Part shown: positions 27,002 to 64,000 of the stretch, one piece after another
How the letters are laid out: each line of letters begins with the position of its first letter
How positions within the stretch are numbered: the stretch's first letter is position 1
Source of the DNA: a virus
Strand: one strand, 5' to 3'
IMG/VR virus record: IMGVR_UViG_3300030685_000016
Span: 108,189 to 172,188 of that record
DNA length: 64,000 nucleotides
Made by a program: the position numbers and the translations under genes
Notes under the pieces: generated by a model
Seen by the model: the letters and a program-made list of their open reading frames with translations, nothing else
Told to the model about the DNA's origin: nothing
The model's database searches: none

Positions 27002-27009
27002 GATTAATT

Positions 27010-27507: not shown

Positions 27508-27516
27508 TAAATAAGT

Positions 27517-30014: not shown

Positions 30015-30138
30015 TAACTCTAATTTTTATATTAATAAATTCTTATTGAGTTTTTATTAATATAATGAGTTTTAAATATTAATTTTATTACAAACTCTAA
30101 TTAATTACATTTTAAGCAATTTTATAAAAAATATTGTG

Positions 30139-30146
30139 TAAATTTG
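30139..30146 (+). promoter_or_regulatory. Bacteroidota-type promoter -7 box (TAAATTTG)
   Basis: In a 206-base gap without genes, TAAATTTGC fits the TAnnTTTG -7 element. It lies 75 bases before the gene at 30221, with TTTTAAG about 25 bases upstream. It would drive the single-gene unit that follows and ends in a strong terminator. Confidence 0.55.
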
Positions 30147-30220
30147 CACTATAATTAGATGAAGAAATACATAGATAATTAAACTTATAGATAATAAAAA
30201 TATATATTTTAAAAAATAAA

Positions 30221-30805: not shown

Positions 30806-30825
30806 TTAGATATAATATCTGAATT

Positions 30826-30865
30826 TAAGCCAACAGTTATTTTAACTGTTGGCTTATTTTTTTTG
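30826..30865 (+). terminator. strong rho-independent terminator
   Basis: TAAGCCAACAGTTA pairs perfectly over 14 bases with TAACTGTTGGCTTA around a three-base loop and is followed by eight T. It is 20 bases after the stop of the single-gene unit. Confidence 0.92.
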
Positions 30866-30911
30866 TATTTTAATAACAACAAGTAAAGGTGTAACAACTA
30901 ATAAAAATTGA

Positions 30912-32590: not shown

Positions 32591-33350
32591 AAACGGAATA
32601 ACTCTTAAGGAGTTATTAAAAGGTAAATCTACAATGATTAAGAATAAGGAATTTTTTCCTACTCGTAATTATGTTGAACCTTTTATTGATAGAATGTCCA
32701 AATTTACACAAGACTTTCGTTTTGATGTAAAGTTACCTGATCAAATGACTGGTAATAAAGAACATACAGATATAACATATAATAGAGTATTAATACAAGC
32801 TGTTTTACCTGAATCTCATATGATTGATAATCATGATGAGGTGATAGGATTTCTGTATGGTATTGATGTAAAGAAACCAGTGGTTAAGATTTACAAAGGA
32901 CATTTAAATAGGGCTTGCACAAATTTATGTGTATTCAATCCATCATGGATTAATGTTCAGGAATTAATTCCTGGAGATCCGATTAATTTTAATCCAATTA
33001 GTGAATTATTAGAAATGCAGAGTGATTTTGCATTAAGACTAAAATCATTAAAAGATACTTATATCAACAGAGATGATAGACGTAGGTATCTTGGGGAATG
33101 GGTGGATTATGCTCTTAGAGAATCACAAGATTATGGATTTGGTAAAGTTAAGTTGGCGGTAAGTACTCCGATTGATGCGTATAAAGAATTATTTATAAAT
33201 CAAGAAAGTGAGTATTATGTACCAATGGGAATTGATCCAAGTTTATTTGATATATATAACAGTTTTACTCAAATTATCAATGATGATCGCAAAGATCTGA
33301 TGAATAAATTTGAAAAGACAATAATTATTAATAGGCTATTAGGAATATAA
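32583..33350 (+). CDS. uncharacterised conserved phage protein (255 aa)
   Basis: The protein contains KPVVKIYKGHLNRACTNL and FNPSWINVQELIPG blocks and no known catalytic motif. The CTNLCVF segment recalls DUF932-like phage and plasmid proteins, but the match is weak. Its place between the phosphoesterase and RecD-like helicase suggests DNA metabolism. Confidence 0.65.
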   Translation: MSENGITLKELLKGKSTMIKNKEFFPTRNYVEPFIDRMSKFTQDFRFDVKLPDQMTGNKEHTDITYNRVLIQAVLPESHMIDNHDEVIGFLYGIDVKKPVVKIYKGHLNRACTNLCVFNPSWINVQELIPGDPINFNPISELLEMQSDFALRLKSLKDTYINRDDRRRYLGEWVDYALRESQDYGFGKVKLAVSTPIDAYKELFINQESEYYVPMGIDPSLFDIYNSFTQIINDDRKDLMNKFEKTIIINRLLGI

Positions 33351-33673
33351 TGGAAGAAAGAGAAAATTTTAGTATTCTTGATTTATTTATACAAAAAGAT
33401 CAAGAGGATTATTTTTTAGATAATTTTTATGCATATGAAAATATAGAAGATCAGGATGGAAATCTGTTATTTGAGTTCATTGAAATGACTATATTAGATT
33501 TTGATTTAGAAGATAGTTATAGTAAACAAAGAGTTATTTACAGAAGAGTTTACGATAATAAATTCTTTGAATTTACTTATGCAAGATTTTATGATGGTCC
33601 TGAATTTGAAGAAGAAGGATGGGTTTTCTTTGAAGTATTTCCTCAAGAAAAATTAATTATTGAATATGTCTAA
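33350..33673 (+). CDS. acidic hypothetical protein (107 aa)
   Basis: A protein rich in Asp, Glu, Phe and Tyr with no recognised motif. It overlaps the preceding stop by one base and the RecD-like gene by 14 bases, so it belongs to the same transcript. Confidence 0.65.
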   Translation: MEERENFSILDLFIQKDQEDYFLDNFYAYENIEDQDGNLLFEFIEMTILDFDLEDSYSKQRVIYRRVYDNKFFEFTYARFYDGPEFEEEGWVFFEVFPQEKLIIEYV

Positions 33674-35027
33674 TAGTTTTCAACTTGGAGGGGATCAACT
33701 TCTTGCAATTGAAACTGTTAAAAAATTCTTAAAATCTTCCGATATTGCTATATCTATTTCTGGTTTTGCTGGTACTGGTAAAAGTACTATAACCAAAGAA
33801 ATAGTGAATTATTTAAACGATGAATATATTTCTTATGTATTATGTGCACCTACTCATATTGCTAAGTTAGTCTTAGAGCAATTTACTGAAGAGGAAGGGA
33901 TTACATTACATAAATTACTCGCATTAACCCCTGATATTGAGATCCTTAACTTAGACTTTAAGGATCTCAAATTCTTAACAAATAATAAAATAAGTTTATT
34001 TCCTGCAAAAGGTGTTGTTATTTGTGATGAATCATCAATGGTTAATGATGAATTATTTGATCTACTGATTATGAAAGCCCACGAATATTTTGCAAAGATA
34101 ATATTCGTGGGTGATGAAAAACAGCTTAGACCAGTAACTGCGTTAACTCATTCAAAAGTATTTAATTTACCTAATAAAATAACACTGAATAAAATCTATC
34201 GACAATCTTCTGAAAGTGGCTTAGTTCCAATACTTCCAGTTTTAAGGGAAAGAATTATAGATAGATTTTATGATTCTATTGGAACAAAAGGTTCTCTTAC
34301 TTGTCATACAGATATGAGAGACTTTTTTTCTAAAATTATACCAGCATTTAGAATTGCAATTGAAAATAAGGATATTTTAGAGACAAAAGTATTAGCTTAT
34401 ACAAATGATAGAGTCGGTGTATTTAATAGAAAAGTAAAAGAGATTATATTTGGTTTAGAGAATGAGTACAGTAAATCTGAATTTTTAACTTGTTATGAAA
34501 ATCTGGAATTTAATAATATGAATTTTTGGAACTCAATGACATATATTGTTGTTAGTGATCCAGTTAAGATTAGTATTGAAATTCCATATTTTATGTCATT
34601 GCCAGGTTATAGATTAAATTTATATGATGCGGCAAATGATGTAACTGGATATGTCTGTATTTTAAGTAAGTATATTTCAAAAGAGTATCTTGATTCTTTA
34701 TGTTTTGTAATTGAATCTACTAGATTAGATGCAATTGAATTAAAACGAAGAAGATCAAGAGATGCTTCAAAAAGATGGAGGCAATATTATGAAATCATAA
34801 ATAGTTTTGCTTCACCAATGGATTTATATTTTGATAATAGGTTGATTAGAAAGAAATCATTTGATTATGGTTATGCTTGCACAATCCATAAGGCACAAGG
34901 CCAGACGATGAATGACGTATTCATAGATATGAAGAATGTTTCAATTTGTAGAGATCCAGATGAATTAAGACAGCTACAATATGTATCTGTATCTAGAGCT
35001 AAAAATAACGTATTTATATATCAATAA
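33660..35027 (+). CDS. SF1 helicase, RecD2/Dda-like
   Basis: Motif I is SISGFAGTGKST (Lys41), motif Ia LCAPTHIAK, motif II VICDESSMV, motif III IFVGDEKQLRPV, motif V YACTIHKAQGQT and motif VI QYVSVSRAKN. This is the complete set of a RecD/Dda-type 5'-3' helicase at the usual phage length of 455 residues. It probably restarts forks or clears proteins from DNA. ATG codons at 33660 and 33666 are both possible starts. Confidence 0.92.
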   Translation: MNMSNSFQLGGDQLLAIETVKKFLKSSDIAISISGFAGTGKSTITKEIVNYLNDEYISYVLCAPTHIAKLVLEQFTEEEGITLHKLLALTPDIEILNLDFKDLKFLTNNKISLFPAKGVVICDESSMVNDELFDLLIMKAHEYFAKIIFVGDEKQLRPVTALTHSKVFNLPNKITLNKIYRQSSESGLVPILPVLRERIIDRFYDSIGTKGSLTCHTDMRDFFSKIIPAFRIAIENKDILETKVLAYTNDRVGVFNRKVKEIIFGLENEYSKSEFLTCYENLEFNNMNFWNSMTYIVVSDPVKISIEIPYFMSLPGYRLNLYDAANDVTGYVCILSKYISKEYLDSLCFVIESTRLDAIELKRRRSRDASKRWRQYYEIINSFASPMDLYFDNRLIRKKSFDYGYACTIHKAQGQTMNDVFIDMKNVSICRDPDELRQLQYVSVSRAKNNVFIYQ

Positions 35028-35305
35028 TGAAGATAATTAAAGTCATATATGACAGTAATTGTAAGTTTATTTTAGATATAATAAATAATTTACCTAATAA
35101 AAGAATCTTTATTGAGACTTATAATTATGAGAGTAAGGCTGAACAAAAAACTGCAAGAGGAATTTTAACTCGTTTTGGAACTAAGAATTTACCATTAATA
35201 GTTTTTGAAGATGAGAATTTAGTAGAATATAACGCTATTTGGAGTGAAAGAAATCCAAATTGGGAAGAAGAAATTAATAAAATACTTAATGATGAAAACT
35301 CTTAA
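35027..35305 (+). CDS. thioredoxin-fold-like small protein (92 aa)
   Basis: The chain starts with a beta strand (IIKVIYDSNC) and has RFGTKNLPLIVFEDENLVEYNAIW, where NLPLIVF resembles the cis-Pro strand of thioredoxin folds. The CxxC redox motif is absent, so a reductase role is unlikely. It overlaps the helicase stop and precedes the ribonucleotide reductase by one gene, which is why a glutaredoxin relation is worth considering. Confidence 0.6.
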   Translation: MKIIKVIYDSNCKFILDIINNLPNKRIFIETYNYESKAEQKTARGILTRFGTKNLPLIVFEDENLVEYNAIWSERNPNWEEEINKILNDENS

Positions 35306-35477
35306 AGGTTATTTTTATATTAATACAGGTTATATAGGTTCTCAAAGAGAAGAATCCTTTAATATTACAGTAGATGACAGTGTGTCAGGTGATTCTATAT
35401 TAGAAGAAATGTTTGATAATTTTATGTATAATATAGATAAAGGATGGATAATTGAAGAAGAAAATATAATTGATTAA
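35292..35477 (+). CDS. hypothetical protein (61 aa)
   Basis: A small protein, starting KTLKGYFYINTGYIGSQRE and ending in an acidic GWIIEEENIID, of a type (strand-rich, phage-specific) I cannot name. I chose the ATG at 35292, which overlaps the previous gene by 14 bases. Confidence 0.6.
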   Translation: MKTLKGYFYINTGYIGSQREESFNITVDDSVSGDSILEEMFDNFMYNIDKGWIIEEENIID

Positions 35478-35478
35478 T

Positions 35479-38025
35479 ATGGAAGAATACTTTAAAAATG
35501 ATGAACTAGCATATGATGCTTGGAGAAGCAAGTATCAATTAAATAATGAGACATTAGAGGAATTTTTTATTAGAATTGCTAGAGAATTTGATAGATTAGA
35601 TAACTTTCCTCAATGTTTAAAACTTGATGAAGATAAATTTAAAAAATTATCTCCTTATGGTCAATCTAGAATTAAGGAGGATAAATACGAATTGTTTTTA
35701 GGCTTATTTAAAGATTTTAAATATATTATTCCTGGTGGATCTGTATTAGCTGGAATCGGTGGTACTAAACCTGTTTCTTTATCAAATTGTTTTGTATTAG
35801 AAACAGATGATTCTATTGAACCGATTTTTGATACTGCTAAAGCAATGGCCCAGATTTATAAAAGAAGAGGTGGTGTAGGAGTAGATTTATCTTCATTAAG
35901 ACCACGTGGCGCAGGAGTAAACAATGCTGCAAATACAACAAGTGGTATAGTTCCATTTATGGAATTATATAGCCAAACTACTAATACTATTGGACAAGAA
36001 GGTAGACGTGGTGCGTTAATGCTTTCTGTTGATATTAATCATCCAGATAGTCCTGAATTTATTACAAGTAAACAGAATTTAACTAAAATTACAGGAGCTA
36101 ATATCTCTGTTAAGTTAAATAATGAATTTAAAAAGGCTGTTGAAAATAATAAGGATTATATTTTAAGATGGCCCACAAATGTAGATTTATCTACTTATCC
36201 TGACGATGATTTAACACTTATTCCTTATAATAAATTAATTATGTTATGGGAAGGATTGTATGTTAAAAAAGTTAAAGCTTTAGAAGTATGGAATTCTATA
36301 ATTGAATGTGCTTGGAATACTGCTGAACCTGGTATACTATTTTGGGATAACATTATTGATAATGATCCTGCAAGTGTATATCCTGAGTTTAAAGCAGTAT
36401 CAACCAATCCCTGTGGTGAAATACCCCTTTCTCCTTATGATTCTTGTAGATTAATTGCAACTAATTTATTTAGTTTAGTATATAAACCATTTACTACGGA
36501 AGCCTATCTTAATTTAGAAAAGGCATATGAAATATTTTATGAAGCTCAGATTATTGCTGATATCTTAGTTGATTTGGAAATAGAATATGTTCAAAGGATT
36601 ATTGATAAAACTGAAGGTGCTGAAAAGGAACTTTGGATTAAGATCAAAGAAATTGGACAAAAAGGTCGTAGAACCGGAACTGGTTTAACTGGTTTAGGTG
36701 ATATGTTTGCGGCTCTTGATGTTCCTTATGGTGATGAAACTACTTTACATACTATAATGAGAACTAAAATGGAGGCTGAATTTGATGCATCTATTGACTT
36801 AGCAATTATTAATGACCCATTTCCAGCATATTCTGTAAGTAATGAATGGGATAATTATGATGAAACTGATATTGGGCCAACTATGGGAAATAATCCATTT
36901 TATGAATATTTCCAATGGAATTTTCCTAATCAATTTAAAAGAATGATTCAAAATGGTCGTAGAAACATTTCAATCTCAACAATTGCTCCAACTGGAACTA
37001 TTAGTTTAATGGCTGGAGTTACAAGTGGTGGAGAACCCTTATATGATTATTATTATAGAAGAAGAAGAAAATGCAATCCTGGAGAAACTCCTGATTTTAC
37101 TGATCAAAATGGGATAGGGTTTATGGAATATAATGTAATCCATCCTAAATTTAAAGAATGGGCACATATTATTGCAGGACCTATAGTTCCTCTTGATAAT
37201 ATGACTACTGGTGAATTAAATATTCTTGTAAAACAATCTCCTTGGTATAATCAAATAGCTGAAAAAATTGATCCTTCTGTAAGAATTAAAACTCAATCTA
37301 TTTTACAACAGTACACAACTCATTCTATTAGTTCTACTATTAACTTAGCTGAATCTACCACAAAAGAACAAATTGATTTTTTGTATAGAGAAGCTTGGAA
37401 TAGTAATCTTAAAGGAGTTACAGTATACCGTGACAATTGTAGAACTGGAATTTTACTTAAAAGTGAAGCTTCTAAACCAATTATCGAAGAAAGACCTACT
37501 GAAATAGAATGTAAAGTTGAGCATTTTAAGAATGAAAAAAAGGATTGGATTGCTTTTGTTGGACTTCTTAATGATTTTCCATATGAGATATTTACTGGTC
37601 CAAAAGATTTAGATGTATTTCCTATTCCTAGTAGTGTTATTTCTGGTAAAATTATAAAAGTACGTCAAGAGGATGGAACTTCAAGATATGATTTTAGGTA
37701 TGTAGATTCTTATGGATATACAAATACCTTAGGAGGATTATCAAGAGTATTCGATAAAGAACATTGGAATTACGGTAGATTATTGTCTGCATTGCTAAGA
37801 CAAAATATGGAAATTGTAAAACTTGTAAAAGTTGTAGAAGGACTTATTTTCAGTAATAAAGGTATGAATACTTGGAAAGCTGGTGTTATAAGAGCATTGA
37901 AAACATTTATTCCTGATGGAACAAAAGTTCATGGTGAAATCTGTGAAAATTGTGGTGGTACAAATGTAATTTATAATAATGGATGTAAAGAATGTAGAGA
38001 CTGTGGCAGTAGCAAATGTGGATAA
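35479..38025 (+). CDS. nrdJ: adenosylcobalamin-dependent (class II) ribonucleotide reductase
   Basis: The catalytic barrel is recognisable by LSNCFVLE (first redox Cys), KRRGGVGVDLSSLRP, STNPCGEIPLSPYDSC (active-site Cys and Glu) and STIAPTGTISLMAG. The C-terminus has CENCGG and GCKECRDCGSSKC, the Cys-rich tail of NrdJ-type enzymes. At 848 residues it fits class II, and no class I small subunit is seen in the window. It makes deoxynucleotides for phage DNA, using host B12 coenzyme. All 15 or so Trp codons are TGG. Confidence 0.9.
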   Translation: MEEYFKNDELAYDAWRSKYQLNNETLEEFFIRIAREFDRLDNFPQCLKLDEDKFKKLSPYGQSRIKEDKYELFLGLFKDFKYIIPGGSVLAGIGGTKPVSLSNCFVLETDDSIEPIFDTAKAMAQIYKRRGGVGVDLSSLRPRGAGVNNAANTTSGIVPFMELYSQTTNTIGQEGRRGALMLSVDINHPDSPEFITSKQNLTKITGANISVKLNNEFKKAVENNKDYILRWPTNVDLSTYPDDDLTLIPYNKLIMLWEGLYVKKVKALEVWNSIIECAWNTAEPGILFWDNIIDNDPASVYPEFKAVSTNPCGEIPLSPYDSCRLIATNLFSLVYKPFTTEAYLNLEKAYEIFYEAQIIADILVDLEIEYVQRIIDKTEGAEKELWIKIKEIGQKGRRTGTGLTGLGDMFAALDVPYGDETTLHTIMRTKMEAEFDASIDLAIINDPFPAYSVSNEWDNYDETDIGPTMGNNPFYEYFQWNFPNQFKRMIQNGRRNISISTIAPTGTISLMAGVTSGGEPLYDYYYRRRRKCNPGETPDFTDQNGIGFMEYNVIHPKFKEWAHIIAGPIVPLDNMTTGELNILVKQSPWYNQIAEKIDPSVRIKTQSILQQYTTHSISSTINLAESTTKEQIDFLYREAWNSNLKGVTVYRDNCRTGILLKSEASKPIIEERPTEIECKVEHFKNEKKDWIAFVGLLNDFPYEIFTGPKDLDVFPIPSSVISGKIIKVRQEDGTSRYDFRYVDSYGYTNTLGGLSRVFDKEHWNYGRLLSALLRQNMEIVKLVKVVEGLIFSNKGMNTWKAGVIRALKTFIPDGTKVHGEICENCGGTNVIYNNGCKECRDCGSSKCG

Positions 38026-38439
38026 ATGACTAATGAACAAATTTTAGAAGGTAATAAACTAATTGCTGAATTTATGGGTTATGAAATACCAAAACAAACT
38101 CATAAACTAGATTGGATCTATTATAAAGGAGTATTACAAAATATGCTATTTCATTATTCTTGGGATTGGTTAATTCCAGTAGTTGGAAAGATTGAATCTA
38201 TCTATGATAAGCATCATGGACATTTTGGAGTACATATTTCAAGTAATACTTGTTCAATACAAGGCACTAATTTATGGAAATCTTTAGAAATGGAAGTGGA
38301 TAATAATGAATCTATAACAAGACCATATGGCTATGTTTATTGTTCAGATTCAAATGTTATATTTGATACTAAAATAGAAAGTACCTGGTATAATGTAGTA
38401 GAATTTATTAAGTGGTACAATAATTACAAAGAAAAATGA
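38026..38439 (+). CDS. conserved phage hypothetical protein (137 aa)
   Basis: EQILEGNKLIAEFMGYE at the start, YSWDWLIPVVGKIES in the middle and TWYNVVEFIKWYN at the end form a pattern I recall from a common family in Bacteroidota phages and their hosts, function unknown. It ends in an ATGA overlap, and here the next TAA is nineteen codons downstream. Confidence 0.75.
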   Translation: MTNEQILEGNKLIAEFMGYEIPKQTHKLDWIYYKGVLQNMLFHYSWDWLIPVVGKIESIYDKHHGHFGVHISSNTCSIQGTNLWKSLEMEVDNNESITRPYGYVYCSDSNVIFDTKIESTWYNVVEFIKWYNNYKEK

Positions 38440-38726
38440 GTAAATATATTTATATCCAAGCGGATACTAATGACGGTGATTACATTAGTGAATTAAATGA
38501 AATAGATGAAGAAGATTTAGTATCAATTCTTCCTATTATTCAACAAGTTGCTAATAATTTTGGAGATTTTGGAATGGGAGAATTTGGAGATTCTGCTGAT
38601 AAACTTTATGGAGAAATAGATAATTATGATTTATTTAGACAATTTGTTCCCAGAGGAGAATATGGAATTCATACAATTGTCGAAATAAGAATTTTGGAAG
38701 TAACAAGTGATAAAAAATTATTATAA
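38436..38726 (+). CDS. conserved phage hypothetical protein (96 aa)
   Basis: The start YIYIQADTNDGDYISE and EEDLVSILPIIQQV resemble a family of small phage proteins of unknown role. Coupled by ATGA upstream and by a one-base overlap (TAATG) downstream. Confidence 0.65.
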   Translation: MSKYIYIQADTNDGDYISELNEIDEEDLVSILPIIQQVANNFGDFGMGEFGDSADKLYGEIDNYDLFRQFVPRGEYGIHTIVEIRILEVTSDKKLL

Positions 38727-43798: not shown

Positions 43799-44530
43799 AT
43801 GAAGAATATGTCAGGAATTTATAAAATTTTAAATAAATCCAATAACAAATGTTATATTGGTAGTACAGTTAATTTCGGTGATAGAAAAAATTTACATTTT
43901 TCTAAATTAAAACGAGGAAAACATCATTCAATTATTCTGCAAAGAGCATATGATAAATATGAAATAGATAGTTTTGAATTTATTATTTTAGAAGAGTGTG
44001 AAAATGAAAAACTTCTAGAAAGAGAACAATGATATTTTGATAATTATAAACCAGAATATAATGTTGCAAAAGTTGCAGGAAATACACTAGGTGTTGCCTC
44101 TACAAGACGTATAGCTATAGTACAATATGACTTAGATGGAAATCAAATAAAAATTTGGGATTGTTTAGAAGATATTAAAAAAGAATTAAATTTGGCTGCA
44201 TCCTCAAAGATATCTGAATGTTGTAAATTAAAACGAAATAAAATTTATGGCTTTGTTTGAAGATATTTAGAGGATAATCCTGGATTTTCATTAAGTACAG
44301 TTAGAAAAGGTAAATGTATTGCTGAGATAGATTCTTGTGGAAATATTATTAATGTATGAGAAAGAATTATAGATTGTGCAAATGATATAGGAACATCTTC
44401 TGCAGCAATTTGTGATACTTTATCAGAAAAATCCCGAAGAAAAACAATATATAATAGAATGTTTAAAAGAATAGAAAAAGAAGAGTTAGAACAATATCGT
44501 TATTTAATAGAAAATAAAAATGATTGATAA
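43799..44530 (+). CDS. free-standing GIY-YIG homing endonuclease with NUMOD1 repeats (in-frame TGA codons)
   Basis: The N-terminus SGIYKILNKSNNKCYIGST is the GIY-YIG catalytic part. Reading TGA at 44030, 44258 and 44357 as Trp gives EREQW-YFDNYKPEYN, GFVW-RYLED and NVW-ERIIDCA, each matching Trp or an aromatic conserved in GIY-YIG or NUMOD1 units. A fourth TGA, at 44525, lies just before TAA. The protein has about 243 residues. It follows thyX and overlaps the endolysin gene by 11 bases; I found no sign that it lies in an intron. Confidence 0.85.
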
Positions 44531-47122: not shown

Positions 47123-47159
47123 TACCCACAGTACAATCGTACTGTGGGTATTTTTTTTT
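47123..47159 (+). terminator. convergent terminator between plus- and minus-strand units
   Basis: TACCCACAGTAC pairs perfectly with GTACTGTGGGTA around the loop AATC and is followed by nine T on the plus strand. The last T overlaps the stop codon of the minus-strand giant gene, so the hairpin sits exactly at the meeting point of two convergent units. On the minus strand the U tract is weaker. Confidence 0.88.
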
Positions 47160-50100
47160 ATTCTGATGGATGCATAAACTCAAACATCTTAAGATCTTTA
47201 TTCATTAATTGTTCAAATGTTTTATTTCCTCATAATACACTGTGTACATCTGTTGCAGTTTTAGTTCCTCAAGCTCAAAAAACTGGCTCAGTTTTTAAAG
47301 CTCCTAAAGTATTATTTCATAAATTTCCTTCACTTAATACTTTTTTATTTACGGATGCCATAAACTCTACTGTTCTTCCATCAATTCCATCAGTACCATT
47401 TTCTGCAATTCAGCCATCATAAATAGCCTTCATCATACCAAACAGTAAAACCATTAATAATGAATCTACCATTGCAAAACCTACTCTCTCATTTCTATGA
47501 TCTTTATTTTTTGCAATTTCTCCTCAGTTTCCTTTTATAACATCTTGCATTAGATATCCTACAGAGTATAATAACCCTTCTTGTGGATGTCCTACTCATG
47601 CTAACATTGGATCTCCAGTATTTTCAGTAGTTGCTTTAAATCCAATAATTTCATCAGGATTTGTTTGACTATAAACAGGTTCTCTTCATAATAATTGACC
47701 TGTTTCCTCATCAGTTACTTGTTGATGACTTCCCATCATACTTTTATCTGCAGAAACTGGTTTACCAAATCACATATTCATCTTACCTGGCCAGAATTGA
47801 AGTAATTGTAATCAGATTATTCCATACCAAGTATTATGTCACTCGGCTTGACTATCTTTATCATAATATCCATAAACTGTATCAGTAAAAGATTTAAATC
47901 CAGTTCTTTCTTTTTCAGAATAAGCTTGATCTAATAAATCAGTTGCTTCATCAAGAATTGGATTGTTTCCTTTAGCTAATTCTGTATTTCTTTCACCTAA
48001 AATTATTGTATAAAGATTTCTTTGTTCATTATATTTTAGATTATTCTTTGCAGGAATATATTGTCCATCAGCATTTTTATATTTTTCTCTATTTTGGAAA
48101 TAATATTCAAATCGCTTATCTTGAGTTGGATCATAGTGTATATAACCTTTATCGTCTAAAGTATGTGCATAAAAACTTCCATCATGAATCATTTTTGCAA
48201 TGAATAGAGATAATCTATTATAATAATCAGGAATAGTATTACAAGCATACATCCATTTACTTAATCCTAACATAGCACCTCTTCTATTTGTCTGCATTTT
48301 TCTCGGTAAAGAATTAACATCCATATTTGCAAATCCATAATAAAGATTTATTCCATCCATTAAATTTCATTTTTTAGACATTTTATTATCAACTGCTAAC
48401 ATAATCTTCATTGCTTCTGCTAAATCTTTAATATTAAATGGTTTTTTTCCACCATAAATATTAAGGGCAGCCAATCCTACATTTTTATACAATCCAAATG
48501 TTAATTCCTTTGCCATTAAAGCAGGACGAAATCCTAACATTGCAGCAGTTGCAATGGTTTTCCCTGATCGAACTAATCTAATTGCATCACTTGCCTCTGG
48601 ATCAATAATAGGTTCATCAAATAATCCTAATTTTATTCTATTAGTAATGTATTCTAATTGTTTAGATATGTTTTCTTTATTTTTTCCTGCAAGTAATTTC
48701 ATTCATCAAACATATGATGTAATATTTGGAAGAATTGCGTCAACATTTGCTTTTCTTATACTACTGAAAGCAACTCTATGAGCTATTGTATCTAAATCCA
48801 ATTCATAATATCCTGGGGAATTTTCATTAATTAGTCTAACTTTCATTTCATCTGATTGCATAGAATAAATATCATACATTTCATTGAAACCTAATTGTGT
48901 TTCTTTAATTCTATTTAAATCATTTTCTGAAAATTCTCTTGGATCTAAATAGTCCTTAGTTTCATCAAGTCATTTAGATACATCTTGTCATAATCCTGCT
49001 AATCCACTTTTTAAAATTCTATCATTTCTATTAATTTGTTGAGAACGCATTATTGGCATTTTGAAATAATCTCCAGAAATAATACTCTTTATAATTATAC
49101 CAGAAGTATCAGTTTTAGTAATAGATTCTATACTTGTTAAATCAATTTTACCTCATAATTTTTCTGGAATATGTAGTCTATATTTTTTAATTTCAAATAA
49201 CATTTGCTTAGAATATTCTTGTTCAGCCTGTGTTAGAGTCTTATCAGAATATGGATCTTTTAATGACCAACTATTAGAAACTTCACTGCCATCATGTTCT
49301 CACATATTTTTATTAAGAGATCTAACATTACCAATTCAATTTTGTGAAAGATTTGAGTAGTTTATTTTTTTAAAAAATTCATATGTAAATGCAGCTATTG
49401 TAGTAGATTGTTTATACATTTTATGTCTAATACTAGAATTTGCTCCTGTAATCATTTTATTAATATTCTGTAAATCTACAGAACCTATACGATCAGGAGT
49501 ATTAGTTTTCAAACCACCAATAATTCCTAAAATTCTTCTACCAGTTTTATCATAATCTGCTTGTTCATCTGAATAAAAAGCTGCTAATAAACTTTTAAAA
49601 TCAGAGAAACCAATAGCAAAATTTCTCATTTGCATAAAATCTCCCTCTGGGACATCTCCTGATTTAGCAACAATTAATGAAGATAGAATTGCAAAAACAT
49701 ATTCAAGTCTGTTCTTAAAATCAATTTCAGAACCAAAAGTTTTTTTCTTTAATTCTGGAAAAGCATCAGCAAGTTCTCTATGAATTTGTTTCAATTTATA
49801 CAATTCCATTCCTTGATAATCTTCACCATATTTTAAAACAATTTTTTCAACTGATGTAGACTCTAAATTAAGAACTGCCTCTTGCATTTCTGTAACAGCT
49901 CTATCTGTAAGATTAAGAAAATTAGATAAATTTATTTTTGGAGTTATTCCTTTTGAAGTTAATAAATCAAAATATTGTTTTTGTATTTTATTTACATCAA
50001 AATATCTTGCCTGAGATCCCTCAACATTTAATGGTATTAAATTCTTAATTTTATTGAAATCTAAATCTAATTCATCATAATAATGATGAAAAAATAATAA

Positions 50101-51759
50101 CATTTTTAAATATTCAACCTCAGCAAATGTTGTGTTTTTATCATATTTTGCATCACCATTTAATACAGTCAAACTAAATAAAACTAATTTATTACTTCTT
50201 TTACTTTTTAATAAGATAAATCCTAAAGAATCAAGTGCCATATTATTTTCAACAACTTTATAATCACCATTTAAATACGGAGATAGTAAGGCATTAACAT
50301 GAAGGGTTTGGTGGTCATTAGCCATCTTAAGAGGTAAATCCGATTTATTTAGAATTGCCTCAGAAATTTTATCCTTTAATTGCGTAACTCTGTAATAGTT
50401 ATTTTCCGATAATTTCTTAGTATATGCGTAAACTCTTTCTTTAAATTTTACCAGTTTTTCAGCATCTGATAAACCTGGTGCCCTAAATCTAAAATTTTCA
50501 TCTTTAATTAAACCAAGTTCAAAATCATCAATTTTACTAATAAATTCTAATTTATTATTTTTTATTGCATCTGCAATTATTTTTTCTGGATCATTTTCAT
50601 CCTTAGATGTTTTGATCTTATATAATGGGAATAAAAAAGCTAAATCTGCTAAAAATCTATCATTCTTTTTAGTATCATATTCTATATTAAACTTTTCAGG
50701 AATAATTAACTGAGCAGTTCTTGTTATAGTACCAGTAGATTGTAAACCAGTATTTGCAGCAGATAATGATACAATTTTTCCTGCGCTAAAATTAATTGGA
50801 TTAAATTTATTTAAAGTTGAACGTTCTCCAATACTGATTGGAATAACATTTATAGAAATAATATTTTTAGCATTAATATGTTGTGCTAATAACTGTCTTT
50901 GAAGTGCTAATTCTCAATCTGTTGTTAATTTCTTTGTTGAATCCCAGTCTGGATAATCACGTTTTGATAATTTTAATTCAAAAATATGAACATTTCCATC
51001 CTCATCAACTACAACAAAATCTAATTTTCCTTTTAAACCAATGGCTCCACCATCTATAGTATCTAATATAACATTAGTTAATATAGTTCCTTTACTATTT
51101 AGAGTTGAATAAATTTTATATAATACATCTTTAATTTTATCTTTTCAATCCTGACTTTCTCCACCTAAATGCCATTTATTCTTTTCAATTAAATCATCAA
51201 TATTCTGTTCAACACTAATATTAAATTCACCTTGAGAAAATTTAAGACTACTTAAAATTGAATGTAATCCAATTCCAAAATCTCTTAATCCTTTTTCTAT
51301 TTCAATAACATCTTGAATATCCTTTGTATATTGTATGATTTTATTACTTATATCTGGATTATCAGCATATTGAGAAATTAGTTCTTTTAAACTTCAATCA
51401 ATATGTGGATTAACTCCATCAGAAATTAATTTCCTTTTAACTTCTGATAGTATTCTATTTTCTTCAATATATTCAGGAGCTAATCTTTGTTTAGAAATTC
51501 CTAAAGTTCCTAAAAACTCTTCCTGTCTAGTAGTAATAAATTGTGAAATATCCATTTTACTTGGATCCATTGATATAGTTTTTCCTCTTGGAAATTGATC
51601 TTTAATTTTATCTACTATACTATTTACAATTTCATCAGAACTAAAAATTTTTGTATTTTTTAGTTCTGATGTATTTTTATAATAATATTCAGTTAATCCT
51701 GTTAAAGTTACAGGATGTTTAAAATTATCCTTTAATAAGTAAGTACAATTTATTGACAT
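47158..51759 (-). CDS. giant virion/transcription-module protein with PD-(D/E)XK nuclease domain (1533 aa, TGA=Trp)
   Basis: A single frame runs from the ATG at 51759 to TAA at 47158 if TGA is read as Trp. In its last 680 bases I count eleven TGA and two TGG Trp codons. About residue 247-263 the chain reads GKLDFVVVDEDGNVHIFELKLSK (in parts LDFVVVD, HIFELKLSK): Asp at 51019-51021 and ExK at 50971-50979 form a PD-(D/E)XK site, and the following DWELALQRQLLAQHI fits the Gln helix of such nucleases. The C-terminal half (GLSKWMYACNTIPDYYNRL and beyond) is unassigned. It overlaps the upstream giant gene by ten bases. Confidence 0.85.
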
Positions 51760-54700
51760 TGTATTTCTAAATTATTGTTTTTAATTTGTTCTGACATTCA
51801 TTCACGGAAATTGGTTTCAAATAAAATTAAACTTTCATTTCCTATTTCATGAGAGAGTCTGGGAAATCTTGATTCCATAGTAGTATTTAATATAGAAAAT
51901 ATATTTGAATCTTCTGTTATTGGTTCTAATTCTAATTTTATTAAAGCACTATTTATTGCATTGCTAAATGATTTATAATCAATAATATTTTCAATTCCAA
52001 GATTAATTTTATTAGTTAATTTATTAATTAATTCTTCTTCTAATTCAGATAAATCTTCTGTTTTAGAATTAGAAAGTAATTTATAATTTTGTAATACTTC
52101 TTCATATGTATTTTTACTTAAATCATTGTATTTTAATGCAATAAAAAATAAATGTAAATACTCATGAATAATATTTTGTTTACCAGAATTAAGATTTGCA
52201 GTATTTATAACCAATCTTTGTCCTTGTTCATTAGATTCTATTCAAGCCTGTTTAGATTGAAGATCAGTATTATATACATGATCTACATCAATATTAAAAA
52301 TTGTTGAAAATCTTTTAGTTAAATCTGAAAGTATAATTCTATTTCTAGCAATAATATCCTCAGGAGAATTATTATTTTCACCAATTTTAAGATCTAATTT
52401 TTCTAATTTTGATCCAATTTTACGATTTCCTTTCTTTGCATAAATTCACATTATATCATTAGAATTTTTAGGAATAGTTTTAATTACTGTTAGAATTTTA
52501 CCCCTGTGTGAAAATGTATTAAATTCTATAGTAATGTTATCAGCTGAAGCAGAAGTAATTTGATATAATTTGTTTTGAGAAACCATATTTCCATCAACTG
52601 TCTTAGCTAATACAATATACGCTCCAGGTTGTAATAATTCTCTTTTTTGTTCAGTTTTTTCCTGAAAATTAGAATTATACAATGCTTTATTAAATCTTTG
52701 ATAATAACCTCTTTCTAAAGTTTTTACATATAATCCAGTTCCGTTAATATTTCGTTTAAAATTAATTGCATTAATTAAATCCTCAGTAACATTAGTGTAT
52801 CCTTCATAGTCTTTTGGATTTTTATTATATATTTCTTCTGCAACAAGTGTTCCTATATTTAATTGTCCACTTGGCATTAACAAAGCTGTCTGAAAATCTA
52901 AATTACTTGGGATAAAACATAACATTGAAGTTTTATCTTCTCCTTCATATAAAGTCTGTAAAAATAAATTATTATATTCTATATTTTCAATAGCAGAACT
53001 TCTACTAATATCACGTGTAGTAATAAAATTAGTTCGTTTTGATAAATCATTATCTACTAAATATTCATTTATTGGCATTAAAGTTTTTTTATCAAAATTA
53101 ATCATTGCTAATAAATTTTTATCTTTATTTAGTATTTGATAAATTTGATTATATTCAACTCCTTCATTAGTTTGCTTTGGTATTATAACAAAGTCTCCTT
53201 CTGAACTTAATTCAAAATTATCAAAACTTGAATAAGAAAATTTAGCTGGAGATTGATCTTTTGCAATTCTATTTGCAAATTCTGACATTTCTTGAAATAC
53301 TTCTCTAGTAACCTGTGGTTTTTTTCTATAAACATTTACTACAGAATCTCTACTAATTGCTTCAGAATAATATTTATCATTTCTTTTTACTAATATATAA
53401 ATTGATTTTTCATCATCACTTATTCCAAGAACTTTATTATATCTTCTTTTACCTTTTTCATCAATATGAAGTATATAATCAGATGAATCAATAGGAACTT
53501 GAGGATTTCTTCTTAATTCTATTGCATCATAATTTTTTAATGTCTGAACTTTTTCTTCCCATGTTTGGTCAGTAAATTCATCTTCAAATGCATTTTTATG
53601 TGTTATTAGAGTTGTAATTCTATCTAAATTAACATATGGATTTTCTAATAATACATCTTGTTTTTCACCAGTATAAACTTTATTAAGCAATAATTTAGAA
53701 GGAGAAACATCTTTAATAGTATTTCAATAAGTTTTTACCTCAGTTTGTTTAGCCCCATTCTTTATTTTTTCTTTTCTAGTTTCACTTTGGACTCTACCAC
53801 CTCTTACTGCGCTAGATAAAACTAATGATTTAGGTAAATATTCACCCTTATTTGCTTTTATAACAATTGAATCATTTGAATTTATTTCATTTGCTTCAGT
53901 AGTATTTAGTATTTTAGTTCCTTTAGCTAATTTTCTAAATTTTATTTCTCCTAAATATATTCTGTCTGTGGCAATTTTAATTTTTCCTTCACTATTATAA
54001 AATCCTCTAATTTTTATTCTATCATCCTCTATATCCACATCAACAGGAACAATATATCTTGTATAATCCTCTTTTTTAGGAATTAATATTAAATCTTGAC
54101 CAAGACTTAGATTGGATTTTATAAAATTAACCATAGATTCTAAATCTGTAAAATCTTTAGAAGTTTCTTGTGGTGAATAATAATCATCCTTTTTTTCTAG
54201 ATACTTCTGAATCTTTATTCCCTTTTGAGTTAAAGTAGATTTTAAATAATCATCAGATATTTTACCATATTCCTCTGATGCTTCTTTATTTTTATCTACT
54301 CAATTTGTTTCTCCTAAATTAAAAATTTGTTTTAAAAGTAAATCAAATTGTGTATTTAAAAGGAATTTTGAACCAGTTATTATATTTACTAAATCAGCGT
54401 AAATGGCATCTCTATTAGGATTTTGAGATAAACTGTCTAAAATTGGATTCTGAAATTCTAAATTTTCATTTTCTCCAATAAATTTTCCAATAAAAAATTC
54501 TTCTGGAGTATATTCTTTAGTTATGCCATATTTTAATAAAACATTTGATAAATTTTCTTTAGACATTAAAGATCCCTGATGTTTAAAAATTCCATAGAAC
54601 ATAGAGAGATAATTATTTTTATCATAAACTATTGTTGGATCTTCTGTTCCATTATTTATTACAGTAGCTTGATTTTGATCAAATTGTCCTGAAATAAATA

Positions 54701-55280
54701 TTTTCTTATGTTTTAAAGGTCCTTTATAAAAGTTATTTAAAATAATAAATAATGCATTATCTGTTTGTGCTTCTATAGTTGTATCACTAAAACTGTTTAA
54801 ATAATCCTCTAATTTATTTAATTCATCTATTGGAGCAGTAGTATTTAATACTCCAGTAATGTTTAGATTATTAAAATAAGTATCAATTTTATTTTCTGAA
54901 GCAAGATTTAATAATTCCTGAAAATTAATCTTCTGATATTTAGTTCCATTAATTTTTTTATAATCAAAGGCAATATCATAATTAAGATTCTTTCATATTG
55001 CATTTTGTAATGAATTATTAGTTACCTTCTTACTAATAAGTTCATTTAATTTAGTAATAACCTCGGAATCTTTAGTGTTTCTAATTATGTTATTTATTTC
55101 ATTTACTGTTAAACCTGTATGTAATGAATTTAAATAGGCAAGCAAATTACTAGTACCTTCTTCTTTAGAAGTTGGGAGTAATTCTAGAAATTTTTGATCC
55201 TGTAAAGATATTTGGTTTACAGTGGAGGGGATTCTTAGTTCCCCCCCATTTGGTAATTTTACATAAAAATAGCACTTCAT
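51750..55280 (-). CDS. giant virion/transcription-module protein with zincin metalloprotease motif (1176 aa, TGA=Trp)
   Basis: The ATG at 55280 overlaps the TAA of the preceding giant gene (TAATG), and the frame continues through many TGA codons to TAA at 51750. Near the C-terminus, at 52152-52166, IIHEYLHLFF carries HExxH, the zincin metalloprotease signature, followed by an acidic helical region. Zincin domains are reported in large proteins of crAss-like phages next to the RNA polymerase. The N-terminal 900 residues are unassigned. Standard-code reading would give a string of short fragments. Confidence 0.82.
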
Positions 55281-58200
55281 TATATACAATTATAATTAAT
55301 TATTAATCCCTTTAAGTTAATTAGGTTTTTTAATTTATCTACATTTCTAGTTAACTCTAAATTTGCGTTATTTACTATATCCATTTCAGTATTAATAACA
55401 TAATCTCCATTTACTAATGATAAATTATTATTAACTCCAGTTGTTAATTTATTTCTAACATTTAAAGTTAAAAATAATAAAGTATTTAATTTACTTCTAT
55501 AGATTTCTATTCTAATTGCTGGATTTTCAATTGGTAATAAATCAAGTAGTTTTGCTTCTCCTCTATCAATTGCAACTGAATATTTTATATATTCTCCTGC
55601 AATATTATTATTATTCTTTATATAATCCTCAAACATTGGAGTTAATCTCTTATCTCCATAAGAATCATTATTTACAATTAAATTATAAACATAAAGTAAA
55701 TCTTTTCACTGCATATTAACTCCTCTTACATTTGGTATTTTTACACACTTTTGATCAATTTCATTAAATTGATTTAATAATATCTGAAATTTTTCCAAAT
55801 TAATAGTTGAATTTAAACTGCTAATAGGAAAAGTTGGAGTAACCTGTGTTGTGGAAATATTAAAGCTATTTTTAACAGTAGATAATCTTAATATATTACC
55901 TAAATCTGTATTTTGTTCATTTTTTAAAATTTGTAATCCTAATACTTCTACCATTCTTTTAAAATTAGCAATACCAGTATCAGTTTTTAAATCAATTATA
56001 TAATCAGGATCAGTAACTTTTACTGTTACAACTTTTCCTTGGTCAAATACTGTAGGATTTACAAGTAAAGCTCCTGAAGTTGAAATCTTAGCTAAATCAT
56101 CTCTGTATAAAGTTATTGAGTTTATACCTGCTAATCTTAATCAATCCTGAACTTTAAATACTAATGCTTCAGCTTTTTCTCCATTTTTTAATCAAGAGGC
56201 AACAGCTAATTTATCATATAAATTAATTATTCTTCTAATCATAACATCATCAATGTTGATAGAAAATGCAGGATTACCTCTTCAAGTTTTAATTGCTCCT
56301 TTATTATATTGTTGGATATTTAGAGAATTTGTTCTGATAATATCACGCATTTGCGAAAATATAAAATTATACTTTTTTGACGATATTAAAAGTATATTAT
56401 TAATAATACCAACACCATCAATCATAGCTTTGAAATGTGGTGAATTTTCTATCACATCAAAAATATTTATTGTATTTTTTATAAGATTGTAATAGCTTGT
56501 GGTTATTTTTCTATAATTTTCATTCTTTGGATGCATATAATATCTAAAGTCAAACTGCCCTCCCAATAAACTTACATTTTTAGTTTCTTCAACACCAGTT
56601 GAATTAATAAAAGATATCTCTACATTATTTGCTAAATTAAATATATCTCTAACATAACCTCTATCCTTTTCTCCTTCATGCAGAAGTGGATTTTGTCTAA
56701 TGACTCTATTAATTAATGAAATTCTAAATTGTTCAGATGTATCCCAAGTTGAACTATCTCTTAATTTTATTGCATCCTGTCCAAATATGGCACCCTCTCT
56801 ATTTCATAGAATTTGATCAAATCCAGTTAAGAATCTATTTAATTCTATAGAATTAGCAGCAATTTTCTGATTAACTTTTAACATACTTGCTAAAATCTTA
56901 AATTCTTGTGCTCCTTCATAAATATCATGAAATGTTTCTAGATCTTTAAATTGCTGTAATATAGATGCCTCTAATTGTTTCTTTTCATTATCAAATTGTG
57001 TTGAAATTAATATAGTTTCTTTCTCAGTTTTTGGAATTATTTGAGAATATTTTTTCTCAAGTTCTTCAATTAATTTTGTTTTATCATTATTTAGCATTGT
57101 TTCATAAGATACTAATAATTCATTAATATATAATTTCTTTGGATCTTTAAAATAATTTGTATTTAATCCTTTAATTAGATATTGAACAATTGGAGAATTC
57201 ATATATTTTACTACTTCATCAATTGAAATTCCTAATGAAGTTAGGTATAAATGGGTTCCTAATAATTCAGTTATTCCATTAATTTTTGCCATAACTAACT
57301 CCTTTGCATTATCAGTTGCACCTGATATAATATTTGAAACAACTACTGCAGCTCTATTGTTAAGAACATCCAGCTGTTTATTTAATTTAGTTAATCCAAA
57401 AGCATCTTCTAATTCCTTAGTCATTTCTTTAGATATATTAATATCTGCAATTGAGGAGATATTATATGATTTACCATTAATATTAAAGGTTTTCAAGAAA
57501 GCTTTATTACTTAATCTTAAATCTTCTGGTTGAGTTTCTAAATGTTTATATCAATTATTGTAATAATTAGTTAATGCTAAAAATACTTTTAATCCATTTG
57601 CACCAATACCTACATCAGCCTTACCAACTGCTGCCTCTTTCTGTTGTTTATAGAAACTTAACATATCTCAATTTGATAAATTTCTATAACTTGCATCCAT
57701 TCCTGCATTTTTTGCAGCATCATGAAGTGATTCTACATCTACTGGTATAGAAGAAAGAAATTGACTACTTGGGGCAGAAATAACTTGTCTAATTCTTGCA
57801 ATAACAGAATTTTTTACTGCATTTTTAGAATAAATAAATTTCTTAAATGAATTATGTTTATTAACTAAATTTAAAACTAAGTTTGCATATGGATTTATAT
57901 TATTTTTAATAACAATAACATCTACTTGATTAAGTTTTCTTAAGATATTTCCAATAATTTTTGCTTCATCTAAAGATAAATTAATATCTGAAAGATCTTC
58001 AATATCACTTGGAATATTAGTTATTTTTGAAAAATCTAATATATCTTGATCTAGATTAATACCATTATCATTAAATGTGTATTTTTTATATGAAGGTAAT
58101 GGAAATTTCTCTAATTCATTTAACTCCTCAACTGTTGAATAATTTGATAAATTAGTTCAAGTATCATATTGACCACTTTTATTAAATCCATATCCCATGA

Positions 58201-61200
58201 TATATGCTTTATCAATATCGAAGTCAGATCCTTGAATTCAAATCTGTCATATTGATACATAGGCATCATTTGATTCTGTACTAAAATATCCAATATTCTT
58301 CATCTCCATTGCAGATTGTAAAGATTGTGCTGGAATTCTAGAAACAATAAACTGATGTGATTTCTGCCATGAAGCATAAACTCTTTCTGATAAAGTATCT
58401 AATACTCCCTCTTTGTTATTAATAAATCAGGTATTATCTAATACTTTTGGAGATTCTCTATATCCAGTAAAGTTTTTAAAGATTGAAAATGATAGACTAT
58501 TTAAATCATACTCTGTAAGGGTGTGATCTCTATTACTTTTAACAACATTATTAATCTTATTATTCATTAAAGGAATAATTGATGAAATCTCACCTTGAAA
58601 TGAGTTAATAAAATCAGAAACTGTTTCTTTAAAATCTCTATATATAACAGTACTGTGTGTATCAGTTTCTTTGATACGAATTGGATCACCTATTTTTATA
58701 TAAACAATATCATAATCTGGTCCAATTTTAATTTCTGAATTTTCTGGTTTCTTATATAATTTTTCTCCTGAATTAGATAATCTTGTCTTTTCAATATAAG
58801 ATTTTCCATCCTTTACTTTTGGTACAAGATCAAAACTGTTAACTGGCTCAACAATACCTGTTAATTCTTTAACAAATTTCACAAATACTGGATTTTGTCC
58901 ACTTTTAAGATTTAAAACCAGGTCAAAGGTTTTTGTTGGATTAACAACAGTGATATTCTCACCTTTATTAGTAGTTAAACTATTATGTATATCTACTACA
59001 TTAAATTCCTTCTCTAATTTATTTCTAAAATATTTTGATCCTAATTTGTTTATCTCTACAATTGATGCTCCATCATTATCAAATACTGTTTTGTATATAT
59101 TTGGCAATATTAGTTCATTAGGTTTAAAAACATAATTTTGAACATCAACTAATTTTGGTAATCAGAAATCTAAAACATCATTATTGATCTTTTTTAAATC
59201 ATCACCATTTTCAGCTTCTGTTCCAAAATATGCATTAAAATCAGTATGCTCACTAACAAATGGTAAAAGTTTAGAACTATTTAAAAATTCTAAGTTTCGT
59301 TCAGTCCATTTATCAAGTATATGATTAGCTTCTTTAAAGTTATCAACAGCTTCTTTATTGTTAGGAACTATTGTTAAATTAAATGCCTTTAAGAAATTTT
59401 GTAAGATAATAAAATCTTTATTATCTGGTAAAATATTCTCTCCTGCTTTATATCTAGATAATAAGAATTTTAATTTAATAGAATCCGTATCAAATAAATT
59501 ATAACTTCTAAGTTCTGTAGATATTGTAGTTTCTGTATTTACAACAACCTGTATTGGAGTTATAATATCAAAAGTTATTTCTGAAGGTTTTAAATCTCTT
59601 GGAATATTTATAATTTTTTCACAAGGTTCATTATTTGAATACATCTCTTTAAAGTCCTGATAAAGTTTTGGGGAAGATAAATTATGTCTTATTCCTTTAA
59701 TTTCAACTATTTCTCCAGGATTAATTTTGCCAACTATTGTTTTAATTGGTTTTAATTTTTTATCCAAATATTCTTTTACAATCTCCTCGCTATTTTTACC
59801 TATAATTCCTCTTTCAACTGAATCCTGCATTGCTTCTTTTATAATATCTTCTTGCTTTAAAATATTTCCTTCTGCATCTTCAAATAATTGAATGATTTTG
59901 TGTGATGGATTTAAAATAGCACCTAATCCTGAATAATACCTTGTAATAAATTCAGAATTTAATCTTCCAATCATATGTTGAACAAATTTACCAAAGAAAT
60001 GTTGATTACTAAATGGTAACATATCTCCACTTCCAAAACTTTCACTAATGATTTTAGATAAATCATTTGTTTGACTATTATTTAAATCTTTTGCAAATTC
60101 TTTTGATAAATTTAAATAAAAATCATTTAAATTTTTATCATCAAGTGAATCTAATGTTTTTAAATATGGAGAAGCTGCTTCTTTAATAATCTGAGCAAGA
60201 TTTTGATAAACTTCATTTGCAATCTGAGAAGTCATTGGAGACTGAGCTAATGTAGAAATTAACTGTGTAATTTCTTTGATTTTAGAAGCATCAGCTGTGT
60301 GATTTGCATCCAACTGTGGACCCATATATTTATGAGAAACAGTTGTATAGTTTAATGGAGTATTATCAATTCAATGAGTAGATGGATTTATATTTGTAGC
60401 TCCTGCTTTAATTGCTGAAAGATTTGACATAATATGGATTAATCTATTTTTTAAAACATAATTACCTTCTTCATTATATGAAGTAATAATGTTAAATAAT
60501 AAATCATTAGATGATTCATCTAGATTAAATTTACTATCAGTAGAATATTCTCCACCAAAAACAGTTCATAAGTCATAAAGTGTGTTAATTTTGGTAGGAT
60601 TATATTCAATGCTCTCAAATTTTTGTAAAATATTATTATATTTTAATAATTCTAGAGATAATACATTATTTTCTATTTTAAGTTTAGAAATTTTGAAATA
60701 ACTTCCATCTTTTCAGTAATATTGATTTAGCCCATCTTTTACAAATAAATTTATATTAATAGGTAATCCTAAAGATTTTTCTTGAAGATTTTTAAAAGCA
60801 ATTGATGAATATTTTGAATTTCTAATTTTATCATTAGTTAATACGGTTTCTGCATCTTTTTTAATCATTATTCCATAAGGAGTTAAGAAAGTACCAAATT
60901 GTTTCTTTGTACCTTTATATCCTTTTCCTGGATAAGATTCTTCAACCATTTTGGCATATAAATATGAAATTACAGATGATCCATCATGAATATCTTGTTT
61001 ATGACTTGTTTTAGCCATATTATATAATTCATCCTGTAAATCACTGATTGTTGCATGATTAATGTTATTTGGAACACCAGTTACTTTATTATGTACTGGT
61101 AGTTCAATAACCGCTGTAGCAACAACGTTTCTTTTACCCATATTAGCAATTCTTCAATGTGCCTCATTTTCAAAGTTCTTACTAAATTTATCATAATCTG

Positions 61201-64000
61201 TAGATGCATAATCTTCTTGTAATGCTATACCTTTAGTTTTATGCATATACTCACCTTTTAAGGTTAAATAATGATACTCTTGTTTAAATAAGTTAGTTGC
61301 TAATAACCATCTTTTAAGTATTGGATTAACATTTCCCTTACTATCATAGAAAGCATGCACATTTTCTTCTTCGTTATCTACAACAAAGCTCTTATTATAA
61401 TTTTCTGAATTTATTCCTAAACTTTGTAATAAATTAGTAATTACCTCTGGATCTGCATCAGAATTTTTTGTTCTTTTTGTAGAGTTAGATAATTGATCAA
61501 GTTCTTCAGCAGAAAATAGTTCATTCTTACCTTCATCTTGTAACTTAGTTATTGCATTTTCAAATTGTTTATTTATAAATTTATTAAAGTTTCCTTTATT
61601 TGAAAATATTTTATAGTAATCTCATATATTTTGATTTATTGCAATACGTTTACCATAGAATGTATAATGTCTTTCAAGTTGAAAATTTACATCAGGATTT
61701 TTAAGTCTTGCCTGTCTTATTACTTCTAAAAATGCATCAGATTTACCCTCGAATTGTTTTAGATATTCATTAATTTTAGTTAAATTCTCAGCAATAGGAC
61801 TTGTTAAATTTAATTCTAATCCCAAATACTTATATTGTTTAATTATTTCATGAAGATTGTCCGTGAAGAAATTTAATGATTGAGTTCTTACTAAATCTTG
61901 TAAAGCTTCTTCTGATAATACATTTTGACCAGATCTATTTCCTATAATACTTTTATTATCATAAGAAGCATTTAATCCAAATAATTTTGATAATATACTA
62001 TTCTTATCAGAATAATTACCAACAATTACTGGAAATACTTCTGATTCTGCTTCTGGTCTAGTAAATGGATTCACAAAACCATAAAAGAAATCCGATATAA
62101 AGTTTTCTAATACACTAAAAGAAAATGCTGACTTACTTTGACCTTTATTAACTAATTCAAGTTTTATACCAGTTCCTTTTAAAATAGAATTATTAGCTAA
62201 AAGACTTTTATATGTAATGTTACCTGTTTCTTTCTTTTCAAAGTCAAATCGTTCTTTTAATGTAACAATATCATTGTTAAATAACGTAGGTGTTTTGAAT
62301 GAAGGAATTTTCTCTCCAGTATATGTTGAAATAACTGTGATTGGAGTTAAAACATAATTATCCAAGAATACATCTAAAATATCCTGTATTTTAGAGTTTA
62401 ATTCAGTAATTACCTTACTCTCAGACTGAACATTTTCTCTATCATCATCATTAACACTTTTTTCATTCTCTGCAATTCTTCCTAATAAATCATTATTATT
62501 AATTGCATCTAAATAATCCAATATTTTACCTTCAACACTAGAATTATTAGTAGTTCATTGTTTTATTAATTCCTCAGCCGAAAATGATTTAATACTAATT
62601 CCTAAAGTTCTTTGAATAAATTTTACCAAGTCAGAAGATGTACTAGTTAATTTTTTTATTCTTTCCAAAGATTTTGCTCTATCTTTTCCAAAAATAAATG
62701 TTTCTGGAGAATTTAAGAGATTTTTTAGATGAGTATACACACTTACTTGTAATGCTATCTTCTCTGCATTATGTGAGTATAATTCTTTTACATCCATTTG
62801 ACTGGAGTTACCATTGAAAGTATTGTAATAAGCCCCATAGCAGTTATTTAACACTTGTGTTAATAATTCTGTTACAGGTTGAGTTTTGGTCTCCTTTTTA
62901 GCTATTTCATTTTTAAAAATACTTAAGGATTGAATAATATCAAATTTTGGTCTGAAAATTAAAAATTTCTTATTATCAAGTCCAAGAAATCCTTGTTTTT
63001 TAGCTTGACTTACCTTTTTTATGTATCATTCATACATATTAATAGGATCCTCATTAAAAGGTTTTCACGTTGGGTCATTAAAAAGTTCTATTGAATTTTC
63101 TAATTCAAATACATGCATTGTTGCAGCTAAACTATATAAATGCTTTGTTTCTAGAAATTGACCAGTAGGATTTCCTCAATGATCATAATGTGGTATAATA
63201 GCAATAGTATTCTTTGTTAAGTCATCTGATAAAGTTTCTGCTGCTTCAGACATATGTTCATCTTCTGCCCAATACTCAGTTTCAAATCCTTTAGTAGTTG
63301 CAGTATATTTAATACCCTGAATTGGATCTTCAAATGTATTGAATTCAGAAAAATTAACTTTAATCTGATTTCTGTATCTTGTAAATAATATATTGTCAAA
63401 GTTAACTAACATAATAGCTGCATTATACGCATCTAATTTTGTTCTTAAAGCTCCATTTGAAATACTTCCTTGTAAATTTGGAATCTCTTTACCACTAGGT
63501 AATATTACTAAATCTTCATCAGAAGCAATTACATCTTGAAACTTACTAATAACGGGTTGATATAATGTATAATTAATTACACCTTTTTTATTATAAATAT
63601 TTCCAATAAATTTATCTTTTTGAAAATATAAATGCCCATTTTCTAAATTACCTCCTGTATATAAATATCTAACAATTCTCTCAAACAATCTATTCTTTAG
63701 ATTCTTTAAACTTTGATTTAATTTTACTGGATCATTAATAAATTCTGAACTATCTTTATCACCAAGTTTAGTAGCCCTCATAATTAATGCATTTGAACTT
63801 TCTAAAAAGTATTTTTCAGCAATATGAAGTGTATGAAATAAATCAGAAACTATTGGAGAGTTAAATAAACAATCAATATTATTAATTGGTCTGTTTTTAT
63901 TAATTCTATTAATAGTTACAGCAGGTTCTAAAATTTCACTTAACTGAATTCCATAATCTGTAATTATAGAATTAAAAGTACTCAGTGATTGCTCACTAAG
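55280..64000 (-). CDS. giant virion RNA polymerase of crAss-like type (partial, at least 2906 aa, TGA=Trp)
   Basis: The frame is open at the window end and runs to TAA at 55280. At 58211-58225 it encodes DFDID within QGSDFDIDKAYIMGYGF, preceded by SRIPAQSLQS. This is the order R-x-P-x-Q then DxDxD of the catalytic double-psi barrel of multisubunit-type RNA polymerases, and DxDxD is the motif described for crAss-like virion RNA polymerases. Other blocks are HDGSSVIS near 60985 and MGPQLDANHTAD near 60320. At least fifteen in-frame TGA codons occur, two of them just before the catalytic motif (SIW-QIW-IQGSD). It would be injected with DNA to transcribe early genes. Confidence 0.85.

Follow-up and report, generated by a model that had tools for sequence, protein, structure and literature searches.

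TGA is probably read as tryptophan in the late genes of a crAss-like phage whose early genes keep TGA as a stop codon

The window analysed here is a stretch of 64,000 nucleotides (positions 108,189 to 172,188) of the IMG/VR viral record IMGVR_UViG_3300030685_000016, which has a length of 172,188 bases; coordinates refer to the window unless given as record positions. Translation with genetic code 4 revealed three very long frames on the minus strand. The first (47158–51759) has 1533 codons, with 22 TGA and 6 TGG. The second (51750–55289) has 1179 codons from a TTG start, or 1176 from the first ATG, with 6 TGA and 1 TGG, while the third (55280–64000) is open at the window end and has 2906 codons inside it, with 21 TGA and 5 TGG. 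The first-pass annotation described frames of 1533, 1176 and at least 2906 codons that are broken by TGA alone and closed by TAA; the code 4 count agreed, with 49 in-frame TGA and zero TAA or TAG in the three frames together and a TAA at the end of each. For the final 680 bases of the first frame it gave eleven TGA to two TGG, which was essentially right: a recount gave 10 to 2, with the eleventh TGA (codon 1307) lying on the boundary. Under table 11 the same frames fall into fragments of at most 414 aa. Frames of such length without TAA or TAG, in DNA of 25 % GC, are not due to chance. Searches of PHROGs and Pfam with all three giant proteins, and of PDB with two of the three, gave no significant match.

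The end of the window and the start of the record overlap by 142 bp (141 of 142 identical, one mismatch), and the record is therefore circular, at approximately 172 kb. Across this junction the largest frame gains a start (MACT...) that matches the homologue consensus and becomes a protein of about 2952 aa. It is this protein, and not that of 1533 aa, which contains a DFDID motif (58211–58225, minus strand), with TGA codons at residues 1845 and 1848 just ahead of it. TGA had been proposed to fall at plausible Trp positions here (SIW-QIW before DFDID); each of the two W is encoded by TGA, and the homologues from MT835492 and G010, a relative discussed below, have Trp at the second. The sequence DFDIDK aligned with cr10_1 gp32 (hhalign E 0.005, probability only 7 %) and had no PDB match; by this motif match the protein is RNA-polymerase-like and a candidate virion RNA polymerase.

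These genes belong to a minus-strand block spanning record positions 0–60 kb and 155–172 kb, whose contents include terminase, portal and capsid protein (PF23898) and which was classed as late from strand and gene content rather than from expression. The plus strand carries replication genes (DNA polymerase A, helicase and ribonucleotide reductase) and nearly all tRNAs. The major capsid protein is of Crass_capsid type (PF23898, E 3e-12), and the large terminase subunit (TerL) and portal are related to those of crAss-like phages; the three genes support the predicted affinity to the Crassvirales. TerL identity to database phages is at most 45 %, indicating a distant sequence. The phage is of gut-type crAss-like character, circular, of about 172 kb, and has two codes in one genome.

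The identity of the residue encoded by TGA was examined in homologue columns, using queries in which TGA and TGG had been masked. Among 294 homologue cells facing late TGA codons there were 80 TGG, 59 TGA, 37 Tyr and 25 Phe, and the Trp fraction was 0.27 as compared with 0.002 at other residues, an enrichment of approximately 130-fold. In a likelihood ranking over 20 residues, W led the next residue by about 31 natural-log units with MT835470, a relative of standard code without in-frame stops, and by 34 with G010. All four relatives that were used placed W at the top; in the two largest data sets Tyr and Phe came next, by a wide margin. The presence of Tyr or Phe in a fifth of the TGA columns is what a less strict, aromatic decoding would give, but Trp was clearly ahead. 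Across 23 late genes TGA made up 79 % of Trp codons (169 of 214), similar to the proportion of A-ending codons in other purine-ending pairs (80–95 %). Stops in homologues, a missing Trp enrichment and in-frame TAA or TAG, which the first-pass annotation had named as evidence against itself, were all looked for and none was found; the count of homologue residues that it had proposed showed Trp to be enriched. Gene decay, assembly errors or inefficient readthrough, which in-frame stops by themselves might suggest, form the least probable explanation of all. The 49 TGA against zero TAA or TAG, and a TGA density that matches neutral Trp codon usage, argue against it, as does conservation: a second, nearly identical contig preserves all 93 aligned TGA codons, and relatives at 63–67 % TerL identity preserve many.

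A tRNA with the anticodon TCA is encoded near the head of the late minus strand (record 60008–60081; 56 bits against the Rfam tRNA model). It has a Trp-type loop (CUUCAAA) and the discriminator G73, both of which are also found in the TCA tRNAs of two related genomes, G004 and G006, where the gene is co-oriented with that of TerL. G73 is a Trp identity element. The phage also encodes a tRNA-Trp(CCA). Decoding of TGA as another residue (Gly as in code 25, Cys, selenocysteine or Arg) or as mixed aromatics would be in line with the ARAGORN label of 'SeC' for the TCA tRNA; that label is owed to the anticodon, the tRNA is of ordinary length and carries G73, and W came first in the ranking with all four relatives, so that such decoding is barely plausible. 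A search for a phage release factor (RF1) and for Trp/TyrRS found none. It follows that host TrpRS probably charges the TCA tRNA and that host RF2 must be outcompeted, a competition that would have to be met by the tRNA alone. The TCA tRNA sits immediately upstream of a gene for an HNH endonuclease both in this genome (record 59420–60081, minus strand) and in G004 (36354–36999, minus strand). A transglycosylase (SLT) gene with 6 TGA codons is located near the suppressor tRNA on the plus strand (record 60555–61520) and seems to be a late gene in the opposite orientation.

Relatives of the phage use TGA for Trp, TAG for Gln or the standard code. In a TerL tree the TGA users form one group (support 80/83), whose sister group consists of standard and TAG users. 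G010 has TAG in the same genes, ranked as Gln by 36 units, and a CTA tRNA. MT835492.1 (L044, L053) is also TAG-recoded, with TAG exceeding CAA/CAG in its giant genes; Ser came slightly ahead of Glu and Gln in its TAG ranking, from 66 cells only. Three TerL relatives (L057, L058 and L059), one of which uses TAG, come from MAG contigs that carry the labels Firmicutes, Tenericutes and Clostridium.

Early genes differ from the late block in that TGA serves as a stop. Under table 11, 26 of 127 early ORFs (at least 70 aa) terminate at TGA, 13 of the 26 overlapping the next ATG as ATGA, and several homologues of TGA-ending early genes finish at matching places. Of the 26 ends, three are not true ones but belong to fragments of recoded endonuclease genes. 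One true end is that of a 442-aa gene (30912–32240, plus strand), where the following gene begins on the final base of the TGA and the G010 homologue has TAG one codon later. Early genes also avoid internal TGA; the early DNA polymerase A gene (14642–16624, plus strand), for example, has none in frame and provides a standard-coded contrast. The code therefore depends on the class of gene in this genome, and the host is very probably no code-4 organism. A host that itself reads UGA as Trp in the manner of Mycoplasma, with the phage simply following it, might be proposed from the low GC content and from the taxonomic labels of the MAG contigs, which may be misbinned, but it is very improbable. 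Under such a code TGA is never a stop, while here it terminates early genes, in half of the cases within an ATGA overlap, and is avoided inside them. In addition, the phage brings its own TCA tRNA, its relatives include users of TAG and of the standard code, and code-4 hosts usually lack RF2. Homologue columns, the TCA tRNA, restriction to the late strand and true early TGA stops all support the original proposal that TGA is Trp. Taken as a whole, these sequence comparisons indicate, with a probability of about 0.88, that UGA in most minus-strand late genes is read as Trp via the phage-encoded UCA tRNA and that early plus-strand genes use the standard code.

We infer a switch in time from this partition. 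The TCA tRNA would accumulate once late transcription starts, would presumably be charged by host TrpRS and could then outcompete host RF2 at UGA, so that full-length late proteins would be made only after its accumulation. A suppressor present throughout infection, with TGA still Trp and early TGA stops kept owing to nearby backup stops, is an unlikely but serious alternative. TAA or TAG occurs within 9 codons of 20 of the 23 early TGA stops, at a median of 5 codons versus 10 after TAA stops (p ~0.02), and no promoter evidence for timing was found, a Bacteroidota-type motif (TTTG-N-TAnnTTTG) having given an uninformative 6 matches versus about 11 expected. On the other hand, the tRNA gene is on the late strand here and co-oriented with TerL in G004 and G006, and internal TGA is avoided in early genes.

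TGA lies well within nine early ORFs of 90 aa or more, of which six encode endonucleases (HNH, HNH_2, two GIY-YIG, DUF4379/HNH and PD-(D/E)XK) and three are short and unassigned. An HNH endonuclease gene (20462–21604, plus strand) contains 4 TGA in frame, and neither TAA nor TAG. A GIY-YIG homing endonuclease gene (43799–44530, plus strand) has TGA at codons 78, 154, 187 and 243, with Trp at codon 154 in two relatives, and a GIY-YIG/NUMOD1 endonuclease gene (18124–19116, plus strand) has one, at codon 169 (Trp in G010). Further early-strand endonuclease genes with in-frame TGA are located at record positions 77275, 85638 and 100661. The enrichment of endonucleases among TGA-bearing early ORFs was significant (Fisher 3e-7, with an incompletely annotated non-endonuclease group). 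None of the six recoded endonuclease genes contains TAA or TAG and decay is therefore less likely. Recoding does not extend to all early homing endonucleases: an HNH gene at record 96637–97176 is without TGA, and some of those in G010 are without recoded stops. On the early strand of G010, TAG occurs in HNH and GIY-YIG genes and also in some unassigned genes and an NlpC/P60 gene.

Use of the recoded stop was also uneven among late genes. Within two blocks of this genome (G000), picked after the counts were seen so that the independent check comes from G010 and MT835492 only, TGA made up 1 of 15 Trp codons in the capsid block of five genes (record 26169–31621, minus strand; Fisher 2e-8 versus 169 of 214 in the 23 late genes) and 0 of 36 in four tail-fibre-like genes (record 32676–38598, minus strand; Fisher 3e-21). 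The A-ending bias of other codons persists in both blocks. The corresponding five genes of G010 have 9 TAG versus 81 CAA/CAG, as compared with 480 versus 650 elsewhere in the late block (p 9e-11), and the MT835492 capsid gene has 4 TAG versus 19 CAR, as compared with 128 versus 62 in a giant gene. Avoidance in the capsid genes may arise because suppression is weaker than normal decoding in highly expressed genes; different timing and gene exchange are alternatives. We tentatively suggest, as a possibility with the odds somewhat against it, that the recoded stop exerts graded control in both TGA and TAG lineages, homing endonucleases in early operons staying incomplete until the suppressor tRNA is present and capsid, the virion protein of highest abundance, avoiding the codon since suppression would be slower than ordinary decoding.

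Capsid-module avoidance and the preponderance of endonucleases among early-strand recoded genes are the less familiar patterns. No report of either was found in the available excerpts of the literature on opal-recoded crAss-like phages (PMC7886860, PMC12386605); in the former, TGA in intron ORFs is noted (Yutin et al. 2021). If both patterns hold in more genomes, recoded stops would be less efficient codons and mobile elements would fall under the code switch of the phage, which is testable in the laboratory. The relatives also provide a natural comparison of the same genes under TGA as Trp, TAG as Gln and the standard code.

Other recoded phages share parts of this system. Code-4 phages (Borges et al. 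2022, as cited in PMC10746230) likewise read UGA as Trp by a suppressor tRNA but carry RF1 and TrpRS, neither of which was found in the present genome. In TAG-to-Gln (code 15) crAss-like phages, for which there is proteomic proof (Peters et al. 2022, PMC9523058), late virion genes are similarly recoded by a phage suppressor tRNA; codon and amino acid differ, and the present phage is known from sequence. The closest likeness is to opal-recoded crAss-like phages. Yutin et al. 2021 (PMC7886860) describe TGA-to-Trp and TAG-to-Gln recoding in late genes, suppressor tRNAs and code switching within the Zeta group, in keeping with the precedent claimed by the first-pass annotation. Lera, an opal-recoded Zeta-group phage, is a close parallel in architecture (PMC12386605). 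These phages and the present one have in common TGA-to-Trp recoding that is mostly late, a TCA suppressor tRNA, genomes of about 170–190 kb with more than 20 tRNAs and PolA, a division of replication and virion genes into opposite blocks, and relatives that switch between TGA, TAG and the standard code; the present phage differs in its distance from database phages. Late-gene opal recoding is thus confirmed in a deep crAss-like lineage and, since it has been published for crAss-like phages, the present phage adds another example rather than a new phenomenon.
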